Below the pieces are notes generated by a model. That model was not told where the DNA came from. It saw only the letters and a list, made by a program, of their open reading frames with translations, and did not search any database. Positions 4,352 through 19,906 of a stretch of DNA of 49,252 nucleotides are shown in pieces (position 1 is the stretch's first letter; each line of letters begins with the position of its first letter). This DNA is from a virus: IMG/VR virus record IMGVR_UViG_3300032285_001524, positions 1 to 49,252 of that record. The stretch is one strand, 5' to 3'. Both the position numbers and the translations under genes were made by a program.

Positions 4352-7300
4352 ATGGCTTATATTATTAATTCAGAAGATGATGGATATGTAACCACTAATA
4401 CATACAGTGATGGATCGGTTGTTCAAGTTGATAATGTTGATGGACAAGAAACTGTTCTTAGAGGCCCATCAGCTGGGTCAAGTCCAATAGCAACCAATAC
4501 TTCACAAACTGCTGGCACATCTTATGATGTAAGCGGTTACACATATAGAAGCAATAGCGATGGTACATTTACAAAAGTAGATGAATCTGGCGTAGAGCAT
4601 CCATCAAATTTAGCGGAATATACTGCCGCTTCTCAAGGAAAAGATCCAGCCACATTGTCGCCTACGCTTGATCCTTCTCAAGTCAGTACAACGCCAACGA
4701 CCTCAAGAACAACTAGTACGGTAACAGGCACAGGTGATCCTAATACGCTTAGTGGCATTATTAGTAGAGCTGCTACCGGCACTTTATCTGCTAAAGACAT
4801 TGCTAATTTTGCTTCTGCTAATGCTGGAAATATTGCCGCTTTAACTGCTTTATCAGCTTTGACAGGTGGTAATACGCCTACAACTGGTGCCTATACTGGT
4901 AAGATTCCTACGCTTCAAGCCATAAGAAACCAGATCAATGCTGGCGTTTCTCCTGGTCAAAGTCAACAGTATTTTACGGATGCACGCTTTGTAAATCCTG
5001 CTGATGCCGCAGCTGTAGCTGCCGCCAAAGAAGCTTCCACTTCACAAGCTCAAGCCATTATTGATGCTGCACAAAAGCAAGCTGCTGCCAGAGCCGCTGC
5101 TCAGCCCACGATACCTGGCTTTGCTATGCCCTACGTTAATCAAACAGCGGTAGGTAATACGCCTGTTACGGCAGGTAATAATTTTGGTTTACCAGCTGTG
5201 ATAGATCGATCCAGTCCTGGTTACAACAACACACCACAAACTGGTATTGGGGCTATAGCTACACCAACTATTACTCCAGCTGTCAACCCAGTTACCCCAG
5301 TTGCTCCAGTTACCCCTACTGTTGTCCAGCCTACAACGTTGAATCCAAATACAACAACAAATCCAAAGACAAGTACGCCAACGTTAACACCAGAACAAAT
5401 AGCTGCACAAAATTATTTGGCCAGTATCCAAGCGCCTACTGCATCTCAGGTGTCTTCGTTTCAAGGGACAAGTCCCACAGATATGTCGTCGTTGATTACT
5501 AAAGCTGTAAACAATGCCATGCTTGTAAATCCTGCAACGGCAAACAAAACGATTGCCAATTTGATGGATGCTTACAAAGTAACTCCTGCTGAAATGGCGG
5601 CAGCTACGGGCTTTACACCTGGTGAAATTACCAACTTATACAATCAAGCCAAGGGCAATACAACTGCTCCTGTGGCTACGACTGATGCGGCTACGATCAT
5701 GCAGCAATTGCAAAATACTGTAGCTGGTGCAACTCCTAGCAATACTGCTTCGATGGTTGCAGGATTAAACAATATCATTGCCGCCAATCCCGGGATAACC
5801 ACGGCTCAAATACAAGCCATGTTTCCAACTACGGACTTAACCCCATACTTTAAACAAGGTGTGGTGGCTCCAGGTAGTTCTACTTATAAAGCGCCTACAG
5901 CTGCGACGATAGCTGCTGCTCCAGTGAATGCTTTAAGAAATGATGTGATAGCTACTGGTGGTGCGGGTATAGCTGCTTTAGCTTCAAAAACTCCTGTTGC
6001 TGGTGGAAGCAATCTTGATTTAAGTGCGGTTCCACAATTGATTACTGCAATGCAAGAAAAGGGAATGTCTAATGCTGACATTGCCAACTCATTTAAATCA
6101 CAAGGTGTTACTGCCGATCAAGTTGCTAGTGTTATGCCAGCGGGTGATAAGGCTGCAATTTACCAAGCGTTTGGTCAAACACCTCCCGCATTAACACCCC
6201 TGGGTGGTGTGGCCGCTTTGCAGGCTGCTATCGCCGCTTCGACACCAGCTGGTACAGTTCTGTCTACTGTACCCCCATCTCCTGCAACGCCTGCGACACC
6301 AGCTACGCCTGCTACGCCACAGAATAATCCTTTGGCTGCTAACTTGGCTTCTATTTCTACAATACCAGAGCCAACTGGTATTGCCTCAATACCAGCTGCT
6401 GAACCTGTTGCATCTGTTGCTGAACCAATTTCTACGCCTAGCTATAACAACTATTCAAATCAACAAATGGCAGATTACATAGCTCAAACAGGATTAAATG
6501 TAAATGATCCTGTTGCTTTGGCTGCGGCAGAACAAGCAACCAATGCTGATCCAGGTGCTGTAAACAGTTACATAGCAAGTCTTGGCCCAGCAAATGATCA
6601 ACCTTATGTAGATAACAGTGGCGCTAAAGCCGGAGGTCTTATGGGATACGCACATGGTGGGATTAGTAATATCCCAAGATATTTACAAGGCACTACTGAT
6701 GGTATGGCCGATAAAGTTCCATCTTCTATTGATGGTGTACAGCCAGCCAAGCTGAGCCACGGCGAGTTCGTTATCCCTGCTGATGTGGTATCTCACTTAG
6801 GTAATGGGAACTCTGATGCCGGCGCTAAGAAGCTTTATGAAATGATGGACAGGGTTCGTTATGCCCGTACCGGTACCAAGAAGCAAGGTAAAGAAATCAA
6901 TCCTGACAAGTTCATGGTTGGTGGTCATGCTTATGCTACGGGTGGCGAGATTGCATTTCCTACGGGAGGAACAGTACCCACAGGAACATCATCTGGCGTA
7001 TCCGTTCCTTCTCTTGGATACTCTACTGTAAACGCTCTCTCTCCATGGGCAGGTGATTACGTTACCAACATGTTGGGTAGCGCACAGGCGTTAGCACAAG
7101 CCCCTATGCCCGTATATCAGGGTGAATTGACTGCTGGCCCATCAGCGTTACAACAACAGCAATTTGCTGGCTTGTCTGATTTGGTCAAGACTGGTGCTCC
7201 TCCTATACAGTTCCAAACCGGTACGTTCTCTAATGCAGGCGCTCCTGCTATGCCTGACGTAACTAGACCCAGTGATACATCATTGGTAAGCCAGGCTGCT

Positions 7301-7960: not shown

Positions 7961-9949
7961 ATGAGTATTTATCAAGACGAAAAAAACATGAAGATGATGC
8001 CCGAGGGTATCCTTGGTGCGTTGGCGCAAGGTAAAGGCGCTAAGCCAGTTGAAGAAAAGCTGTTGGCGTTGATCGAGAAATCTAGGCGCTTGGGATTGGA
8101 AGCTGATAAAGAAGCTGCCATGAACAAGCCTATGCCTACAGTAGCTGACCAGGTCGAGCACAAGACTGGGCTAATGGATCTACAAGAAATGGCCAAACGA
8201 TTGGGCGTACAGATCACTGGCATCGCTCCTATCAATGCTCAGCCACAAGCACCACAAGGCGCTCCTCAAGCACCTATGCCTCCCGCTGGTATTGCTGCTG
8301 CCCCAGCACCAATGCCTGCCCCTATGCCTGCTCAAGCTGCCGCTCCTATGCCAGCTCACATGGCTCATGGCGGAGTAGCACACGCTGTTCCACACCACAT
8401 GTTTAGATTTTCTCATGGTGGTGGGATCATGGGATTTGCGGATGGCGGTACGGACAAAGATAAAGCGCTTGCTGCTATTGAGTCTGCTATGCCAAAAGAG
8501 ATGCCAGATACATCAACATTAAATCCTTCTGCATATTACATGCAAAGAGCTGCTGCTATTAAAGCAGTAATGGAAAATTTGGATACACCTGCTCCTTACT
8601 CAGGCCCTCGTCAGGAAACATATGCTGAACGCGATGTAAGAATGCACAATCAACCTGCATTGACTTCTTATCATGATCCATTTAGCATTTCTAATTTGCT
8701 AAAGAAAACAGCTACGCCTGAGTTTAAAAGAAGCACGTTACCGTTTACAGATGAAGATGTAGCTGCCGCTCAAATGGAAAAGACATCCTCAAATATTCCA
8801 GGTGAAGCTACAAAGATTGTGCCAGTACCAAATGCTCCAGTACCACAAGCAGTTGGTGATGCTCTTACAAAAGAACAACCTAAAACACCTGCGGGCTTAA
8901 AAGATGCATTGGCCACACAGAAAAAACCAGCGCCTGAAGCCAATCCTAATAAGATTGTGCAATCATTGATGACCGGCGTTCCTGGTACTGCTCCTGCTGC
9001 TGCTCCATCTGAGCCTGCTGAGAAATCACAGGCACAGAGAATTGCAGAAGGTTACATGACTCCTCCAAGTGTCCAAGCTGAGATTCAAAAAGAAAGAGAT
9101 ATGGCTAAAGCATTTGGATACGATACGCCTGCCGGTGAAGATGCCATGAGACGAGCCAATGCAATGGAAGCCAAGATTGCTGAGTTCCAACAAAGCCATC
9201 CCATGGAGAAGTTCCAGGCTTTATTGACAGGTATCCAGACCGGTGGATACGGTGGTGGCGCACCAGCTGCTGCTGAGAATGAGCGTGCTTATAGAGAAAA
9301 CGTTCTCAAACAAATGGAAGCTATTCATAATCTTAAGTCACCTATTGAGCAAGCAAGACGAGCTGAAGCTATTGCTAAGGGCAAGAACGTTACCGAGAAC
9401 ATGGCCAAGGCTAACGAGACAGCATCTAGAACTGCTACCAGTTTGTTTGGTGAAGAGCAAAGAGCCAAGTCAGCTAAAGAGCTTGAGCAAATGCGCGGCC
9501 TCAATGCTTTGGCTGTACAACAACTTTCTTCTGCAACCCAGATCAAGATACATCAGATGGCGCAAGCTGCTGCCGATGCACATCGTGAGCTTACTGCACA
9601 AGAGATTGAGCAATCACTTAAAAATGATCCTAAATATAAAGACATGAGCTATGCAGACAGATTGAATGCTGCTTATGGAATTAAGACGGGACGTTCAGAA
9701 AAGATGGGTGTTGCTGAATTAAGTGCTATAGTTAAGGCTACGGCACCAATAGCAAATACTGACGAAGATGCTAAAGCACAAATGACATGGGCTATGGGTG
9801 AGCTTCAGAAGCTTTATACTGGACAGAATTATCAACCAGGTTCAGCTCCATCTTTAGAACAATTCATTGCTAAGGCTGGCCCATTGAATCCTAAAATGAC
9901 CAAAGACCAATTGACTGCAAAGTACACTGAACTTTACGGGAAAAAATAA
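7961..9949 (+). CDS. Putative internal virion protein
   Basis: A 662-residue protein. An N-terminal helical segment with EEKLLALIEKSRRLG is followed by a Pro/Ala/Met-rich linker (about residues 90-130), then HGG-type motifs (MAHGGVAHAV, FSHGGGIMGFADGG). The C-terminal half is long, charged and probably coiled coil (about 400-560). The GA at its stop overlaps the next ATG (AATAATGG junction), suggesting coupled translation with the polyvalent protein. A half-site of the dispersed palindrome (CGTTTACAGATG) occurs near 8741. No enzymatic motif was seen. Confidence 0.6.
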   Translation: MSIYQDEKNMKMMPEGILGALAQGKGAKPVEEKLLALIEKSRRLGLEADKEAAMNKPMPTVADQVEHKTGLMDLQEMAKRLGVQITGIAPINAQPQAPQGAPQAPMPPAGIAAAPAPMPAPMPAQAAAPMPAHMAHGGVAHAVPHHMFRFSHGGGIMGFADGGTDKDKALAAIESAMPKEMPDTSTLNPSAYYMQRAAAIKAVMENLDTPAPYSGPRQETYAERDVRMHNQPALTSYHDPFSISNLLKKTATPEFKRSTLPFTDEDVAAAQMEKTSSNIPGEATKIVPVPNAPVPQAVGDALTKEQPKTPAGLKDALATQKKPAPEANPNKIVQSLMTGVPGTAPAAAPSEPAEKSQAQRIAEGYMTPPSVQAEIQKERDMAKAFGYDTPAGEDAMRRANAMEAKIAEFQQSHPMEKFQALLTGIQTGGYGGGAPAAAENERAYRENVLKQMEAIHNLKSPIEQARRAEAIAKGKNVTENMAKANETASRTATSLFGEEQRAKSAKELEQMRGLNALAVQQLSSATQIKIHQMAQAAADAHRELTAQEIEQSLKNDPKYKDMSYADRLNAAYGIKTGRSEKMGVAELSAIVKATAPIANTDEDAKAQMTWAMGELQKLYTGQNYQPGSAPSLEQFIAKAGPLNPKMTKDQLTAKYTELYGKK

Positions 9950-19151: not shown

Positions 19152-19179
19152 TCCCGTCCTGAGAGGCGGGATTTTTTTT
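19152..19179 (+). terminator. Rho-independent terminator after VRR-NUC
   Basis: A TCCCG / CGGGA stem extended by a T-G wobble and a C-G pair, followed by eight T (19172-19179). It ends the VRR-NUC transcript 53 bp after the stop codon and separates it from the non-coding region. Confidence 0.75.
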
Positions 19180-19194
19180 GTGCTACGATTAATC

Positions 19195-19295
19195 GTTGGC
19201 AAAACGGTTTAGCTCCGTGGGATTGAAGATAAGAGAGTGTTGTTCGCCCAACCCTGCTTTATGGGGGCCAACTTCAAAACCGACATGATGTCGGA
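19195..19295 (+). other. Possible structured RNA element
   Basis: No gene is seen from 19099 to 19300. The outer arms GTTGGC (19195-19200) and GCCAAC (19267-19272) are complementary and enclose ACGG-loop-CCGT and GTTG-loop-CAAC hairpins. A perfect hairpin, CCGACATGATGTCGG, follows just after. It is not a tRNA by any fold I could make. It could be a processed RNA or part of a replication origin. Confidence 0.3.
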
Positions 19296-19302
19296 TTTGG
19301 TA

Positions 19303-19332
19303 TTGACAAGCATTGATACTTGTTGATACAAT
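19303..19332 (+). promoter_or_regulatory. Sigma-70-like promoter for the small RNA
   Basis: TTGACA (19303-19308), an 18-bp spacer, TACAAT (19327-19332). Transcription would start near 19339. No ORF with a ribosome site follows before the terminator at 19428-19451. Confidence 0.6.
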
Positions 19333-19338
19333 TTGGAC

Positions 19339-19451
19339 AACAGCATAGGTGTGGAAGCCGGTGCTAAGAGTCGTTAATGAAATCCCGACCCCGAATGGGG
19401 TAGCCCTACGCAAAGGGTTCTTCCACCGGGGTTTCATTAACGGCTTTTTTT
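19339..19451 (+). ncRNA. Predicted small RNA with pseudoknot and terminator
   Basis: About 113 nt from the predicted start to a T-run. An 18-bp stem pairs 19369-19386 (AGTCGTTAATGAAATCCC) with 19428-19445, with only two G-U wobbles, then seven T. Its loop contains CCCCGAATGGGG and AGCCC-loop-GGGTT hairpins. GTGGAAG (19351-19357), upstream of the stem, is complementary to CTTCCAC (19420-19426) in the loop, which would make an H-type pseudoknot. I recognise no known RNA family. A role in counting, timing or host-protein binding is open. Confidence 0.55.
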
Positions 19452-19906
19452 ATTGCTCCACCCTACCTGTCTTCACAGGGTCTATCGGGTTTTGAATTGG
19501 CATGAGGGAAGCGTAGGAAGCGAAAGCGTAGTCCGCAGTCCACCAGTTCTACAACGTTCTTACCTGTGACGTACAGCGCAAAGAAGGTGCAAGCGCAATT
19601 GGGAGTGATGCCTTAGATGTCCGTGGTTCATTGCTGCGGGTGGCAGTTAAGGTTCGGGTAGCCAAGCTAGATAGTGTAAACGTTTACACTAGAAAGTACC
19701 CGAAGTCCGTAGGCGAAGCATGGCTCCGTCGGTGGAAAATCCTAGGGAAGCCGAGCGCGTCCCTAGGCAGTTCTTTGTCCTCTCACATTCACCATCGGTG
19801 GAAATCATTCGTACAGACCAAGTGTTGTAAACCACGCACTATCGTTTTCCCTAACCATTCTGGTGTAATTATGTGTACAATGGTGTACTTAGATGGAGGA
19901 AACAAC
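19452..19906 (+). other. Non-coding region with multiple hairpins around a perfect palindrome; possible origin
   Basis: About 455 bp without a convincing gene, though one frame is open from 19631 into the next gene. It holds CCTGT-CTTC-ACAGG (19466-19479), TTCGGGTA (19653-19660) with TACCCGAA (19697-19704) flanking the perfect palindrome at 19672, CCTAGGGA/TCCCTAGG (19741-19767), CACC-ATC-GGTG (19789-19799), and the repeated string TCGGTGGAAA. The hairpin density and position directly upstream of the replication operon would fit an origin or a large structured RNA. Neither is proven. Confidence 0.35.
19672..19691. repeat. Dispersed palindrome, copy 5 (perfect, non-coding)
   Basis: TAGTGTAAACGTTTACACTA, a perfect 20-bp palindrome in the non-coding region, bracketed by the inverted pair TTCGGGTA/TACCCGAA 11 bp to its left and 5 bp to its right. 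Confidence 0.9.

Follow-up and report, generated by a model that had tools for sequence, protein, structure and literature searches.

A 113-base stretch of a lake-phage genome was proposed, from its letters alone, to be a new small RNA. Does it encode a genuinely structured transcript, and if so, what would such an RNA do at the border of a phage replication module? The window analysed here is the whole 49-kb virus record, and RNA coordinates are given as positions within it. The element, which we call type I RNA, occurs as a single copy at 19339–19451 on the plus strand, with a predicted 5′ end near 19339 and a 3′ end in a T tract, corresponding to a predicted transcript of ~112 nt. To its left are genes for an exonuclease, an ERF protein and a VRR-NUC-like endonuclease (a name assigned by eye; the PHROGs label is endonuclease), and to its right is a co-directional replication operon encoding a ParB-like protein, a helicase and a primase. 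Among relatives, the first downstream gene with support runs in the same direction as the RNA in 75/92 loci, its identity differs from phage to phage, and in the phage record MW202545 the RNA sits differently relative to the replication genes. PADLOC analysis of 10 neighbouring proteins revealed no defence or toxin gene that could account for the RNA.

A terminator at 19152–19179 would isolate the RNA unit from upstream transcription. The region that follows it holds a recurring RNA-like element (~19195–19275), comprising a long stem around GGGUUAGCGCC-type and CACUGCUUUAUGUG-type hairpins. The fetched loci, among them L027, L079 and L244, contain it 66 times in total, with as many as three copies in one locus, often within 100–400 nt of the type I RNA.

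Architecture and predicted fold

The features described in the earlier note could each be located on the plus strand: a promoter of the form TTGACA-18-TACAAT, an 18-bp stem containing only two wobbles and followed by seven T, two inner hairpins, and a 7-nt pseudoknot. The sigma-70-type promoter (19303–19332) matches 11/12 consensus positions, with the –35 element TTGACA at 19303–19308, an 18-nt spacer, and the –10 element TACAAT at 19327–19332, preceded by TG. A promoter with at least 10/12 matches is kept at the same place in 80/105 relatives, compared to 1.4 expected from shuffles. As this promoter ends 12–20 nt before the pseudoknot strand, transcription is expected to start at P1, a 5′ hairpin at 19342–19365 (19342–19349 paired with 19358–19365). 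The loop of P1 is itself the 5′ strand of the pseudoknot, GUGGAAG (19351–19357), a feature beyond those in the earlier note, and its partner CUUCCAC is positioned at 19420–19426. The terminator stem P2 (19370–19387 paired with 19427–19444) comprises 18 bp including two U–G wobbles, and can be extended to 22 bp with the first T's of the seven-T tract at 19445–19451. The two inner hairpins are P3 (ACCCC-GAAU-GGGGU, 19388–19401) and the variable P4 (~19402–19419). The T tract persists throughout the alignment of relatives, and no relative whose 3′ end is intact lacks a terminator.

The MFE of –55.7 kcal/mol lies far below that of dinucleotide shuffles (–33.6 ± 3.8 kcal/mol; z = –5.9), with 0/200 shuffles reaching an equal value. 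This folding score, together with the covariation described below, rules out a chance hairpin. On the combined evidence of fold, covariation and match to the covariance model R1, 19339–19451 is almost certainly a real structured RNA.

Distribution of type I RNAs

Type I RNAs were defined by two features: the P2 stem, P3 ACCCC/GGGGU and T tract represented in R1, and a 7-bp pseudoknot between the P1 loop and the junction. Both are found in the window, which scores 89.9 bits against R1 (E 8.5e-20), a value to be read in light of the presence of the window sequence in the R1 seed; the independent evidence is a separate profile search. A DNA pattern derived from the conserved core identified type I relatives in at least 119 IMG/VR stretches from environmental phages, and every one of the viral matches fetched was confirmed by profile search. 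In addition, a profile search of the loci fetched via neighbouring proteins located a homologue in 27. The same DNA pattern matched 23 stretches in GTDB genomes, none with a full-length model match. MW202545 (Manatee Spring) was the one deposited phage record found to carry the RNA (107.8 bits). Searches of 19–50 kb stretches from HTVC027P, DSL-LC04, Acidovorax phage AP1, Pseudomonas phage PS-1 and MW202426 returned no match, and hence no cultured system was found among these isolated or deposited relatives. Minus-strand matches to the profile or covariance model reflect the symmetry of the inverted repeat and do not represent additional copies.

Covariation and junction geometry

In a first alignment of 48 divergent members, 151 cells had changed on both sides of a pair (versus 35 in shuffles), a count from a set that was partly selected for a matching pseudoknot and that omitted two complete members for a single mismatch. 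To control for this bias, R1 was built without the pseudoknot and then used to align 100 members. In this alignment 96.8% of cells are paired and 318 are double compensatory, compared to 71 in shuffles, and all measures of pairing collapse once the partners are offset by 1 to 3 columns. Compensatory changes among relatives, the check named in the earlier note, are thus strong in both P2 and the pseudoknot. Specifically, double changes occur at 13/22 pairs of P2, and the pseudoknot is paired in 99.4% of cells, with a perfect 7-bp helix in 95/99 members. Variation is confined to three of the seven pseudoknot pairs, which show 21, 28 and 59 double changes and yield variants such as GUGGAA/UUCCAC, GUGAGA/UCUCAC and GUGGCA/UGCCAC. 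When the pseudoknot columns are left out of tree building, the resulting tree requires at least 16, 19 and 27 changes in the varying pairs, counts that are approximate because the tree rests on short sequence.

The remaining helices differ in how they are conserved. The P1 loop is closed by 4 bp or more in 103/105 relatives, and the G–C pairs at 19348/19349 covary. P4 corresponds to a segment of 0–29 nt among relatives (absent in L046), and directly abuts the pseudoknot strand in most of them. P3 is paired in 99.6% of cells with a nearly invariant sequence, and the CGGGG half of P2 likewise shows hardly any variation, such that pairing in these regions is supported by constancy rather than by exchange of pairs. 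Indeed, CCGACCCC...GGGGU...CACCGGGG is nearly invariant, more so than pairing requires, and the invariance of P3 and CGGGG suggests recognition of the sequence itself or a tertiary fold.

P2, P3, P4 and the pseudoknot are joined by linkers of 0–2 nt, and together would form a four-way junction. Stacking of P2 on P3, and of P4 on the pseudoknot, would put a rod of pseudoknot and P1 alongside P2, and the short P1–P2 connection could then span the remaining distance. With such stacking and such short linkers, an intramolecular pseudoknot appears feasible.

Coding potential and known RNA families

The same note had judged the element to be non-coding and without resemblance to a known family, and both judgements held. 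Lengths from the pseudoknot to the T tract are distributed over all three frames among 105 relatives, which rules out protein coding. On this basis, the hypothetical protein annotated across the RNA in MW202545 (L294, 5968–6195) is probably spurious. No Rfam 15 family scored above its gathering cut-off in the window, and at E ≤ 10 only chance-level eukaryotic matches appeared, the best being mir-191 with 20 bits versus a cut-off of 54. Rfam searches of 12 related loci recovered tRNAs and nothing else, while ARAGORN detected 0 tRNA or tmRNA genes in the window. No description of this RNA was found in the open-access literature, a scope that makes the result weak as evidence of absence. We therefore judge that the RNA belongs to a new class, outside any family or paper found, although its mechanism may still prove to be of a known kind, such as attenuation.

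A conserved block downstream of interchangeable RNAs

Directly after the terminator is a second conserved noncoding block, here termed slot 2 (19471–19800, plus strand), which has no promoter of its own and was recovered by profile search in 33 loci, 16 of them without a type I RNA. The distance from the RNA to this second block is about 0–110 nt in relatives, in which slot 2 takes the form of several recurring classes of about 250–450 nt. Across 103 loci, the 84 nt immediately following the T tract contain no promoter scoring above 8/12, and slot 2 gave no Rfam match. The downstream 230-nt segments place 85/94 loci in one linked group (mean degree 12.9), compared to just 18/94 linked loci for equal upstream segments (mean degree 2.4). 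The plus strand folds better than the minus strand in each slot-2 class tested; the slot 2 of the window itself has no excess folding stability (z = 0.23). A perfect palindrome, GTGTAAACGTTTACAC, occurs inside it at ~19676–19691.

In all 16 slot-2 loci without type I, the block is preceded by a different candidate RNA, again comprising a promoter, a hairpin and a T tract. Type II RNAs occupy the genomic place of type I (L105 at ~5460–5620, L007, L091, L131 and others) and form a perfect 7-bp pseudoknot in 29/29 members, using 11 different sequences. Their DNA pattern matches 24 stretches, their scores against R1 are weak (E about 1e-3 in several), and types I and II were not found together in any locus.

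Further candidates, assigned by eye only (types III to V), were seen in L150, L113 and L107 (type III), as well as in L120 and L123. They are unrelated in sequence, with the same slot-2 block downstream, and display a promoter, a 5′ hairpin, a possible loop pseudoknot and a T tract.

From these sequence comparisons, type I appears to be one among several interchangeable RNAs that head a larger conserved noncoding unit. The earlier claim of a small RNA with its own promoter therefore stands as regards promoter and terminator, whereas the stand-alone role it implied may be only half of the picture. We give roughly even odds to a broader interpretation, a two-slot cassette in which slot 1 is occupied by one of several terminator RNAs, pseudoknot-clamped but unrelated in sequence, and slot 2 by one of several larger structured RNAs made only by read-through, the two constituting a so far undescribed RNA-based system of early infection.

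Proposed mechanism and alternatives

Our preferred reading, held tentatively, is that type I RNA is a clamped leader terminator, giving rise to a stable short RNA and restricting read-through into slot 2. Slot 2 lacks a recognisable promoter and comes directly after the terminator; one transcription unit is thus the simplest arrangement, and its order would be promoter, clamped terminator RNA, slot 2 and early genes. Promoter, terminator, coupling to slot 2 and every helix, with the pseudoknot among them, are evident at the sequence level, and from them we infer an order of folding, read-through, end protection and any target or partner. Transcription would begin at the strong promoter, with the P1 hairpin folding first and its loop GUGGAAG binding CUUCCAC once the downstream half of the junction has been transcribed. 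P2 would then close onto the pseudoknot and RNA polymerase would be let go at the T tract, leaving a stable ~112-nt RNA protected at either end. Polymerases escaping release would continue into slot 2 and then, for this window, towards the ParB-like/helicase/primase operon. The element would in this way deliver an abundant short RNA as its main product and also set the amount of slot-2 RNA. Several observations count against this mechanism: the downstream genes vary, which is unusual for cis-regulators, the window's slot 2 shows no excess fold stability, and a conserved alternative (antiterminator) pairing was not found among relatives. A downstream UCCAC copy, a potential competitor for the P1 loop, is found in only 33/72 GUGGAA and 5/24 GUGAGA cases, a weak association.

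The strongest rival, unlikely on balance but deserving of real weight, is an independent trans-acting RNA, serving as a protein scaffold, a decoy or an inhibitor of a host machine. The terminator would then merely end the RNA, and its proximity to slot 2 would reflect clustering of phage RNA genes. The presence of its own promoter and terminator, the constancy of the core beyond pairing needs and the variable downstream genes agree with such a role, as do the two tRNA genes (8315–8466) located 64 nt upstream of the type I RNA in L165. However, a promoterless slot 2 comes directly after the RNA, and the loop sequence drifts freely while its internal pairing is kept, making a fixed-target base-pairing seed unlikely.

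We consider it improbable that the RNA is a ligand- or protein-sensing, riboswitch-like attenuator in the 5′ leader of the early operon. A leader with promoter and intrinsic terminator is indeed present, accompanied by a pseudoknot, a conserved core and co-directional downstream genes, but no conserved alternative pairing was found beyond the weakly associated UCCAC copy, the terminator encloses the junction instead of competing with it, and downstream gene function is inconsistent. A replication-priming transcript at an origin, similar to RNA II/RNA I, is a poorer candidate still. The location at the junction of leftward exonuclease/ERF and rightward ParB-like/helicase/primase genes would suit such a transcript; the terminator in all relatives with an intact 3′ end and the variable position with respect to replication genes, as in MW202545, would not.

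Self-assembly after the manner of phi29 pRNA rings, with the GUGGAA loop of one copy bound to UUCCAC in a second copy, is very improbable. Intermolecular contacts would equally allow complementarity to be kept as the sequence changes, yet the 0–2 nt junction linkers and short P1–P2 connection permit the contact within one molecule, a partly geometric argument, and TerL is of the ordinary kind. Finally, an ordinary terminator or DNA cruciform would explain the long inverted repeat and T tract, but is contradicted by the conservation and covariation of the pseudoknot, P1 and P3 and by a promoter positioned for a start at P1, and is scarcely credible.

Overall, few phage RNA families rest on comparative evidence as strong as at least 119 occurrences, many independent double substitutions in a pseudoknot, and the reappearance of one architecture in RNAs of unrelated sequence at the same genomic position. 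Two questions become testable as a result, namely the role of a series of structured RNAs heading the replication module of environmental phages, and control by a pseudoknot of read-through to a second RNA. Annotators gain a covariance model for a stretch that seems to be mis-annotated as protein in one phage record.

Comparison with known systems

Attenuators and riboswitch platforms share with type I RNA the leader position, the promoter, and a pseudoknot beside an intrinsic terminator. In contrast to these, no conserved alternative fold or constant downstream gene was found for type I RNA, and it precedes a noncoding block, not directly a gene. The put RNA of HK022 is an early phage leader of two simple hairpins that makes polymerase ignore terminators; type I RNA resembles it as an early leader RNA with hairpins near the promoter, but possesses a terminator and a pseudoknot. 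ToxI, from type III toxin–antitoxin systems, is a small pseudoknotted RNA of phages or plasmids. Type I RNA differs in being single in the window, without tandem pseudoknot repeats, and no ToxN-like toxin gene was identified by PADLOC among the 10 neighbouring proteins. The packaging RNA of phi29 is of similar size, and forms rings through loop sequences that are variable yet complementary. Type I RNA folds otherwise, has a terminator and is accompanied by an ordinary TerL, and intermolecular pairing is not required.

GOLLD and ROOL are large, ornate structured phage RNAs from lake and other environmental metagenomes, with unknown function (Rfam; PMC12286853). Both are far larger than type I RNA, which at ~112 nt has its own terminator, a pseudoknot clamp and no Rfam match. 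Type I RNA nevertheless resembles them as a phage-borne structured noncoding RNA, and in L165 it likewise lies beside tRNA genes.
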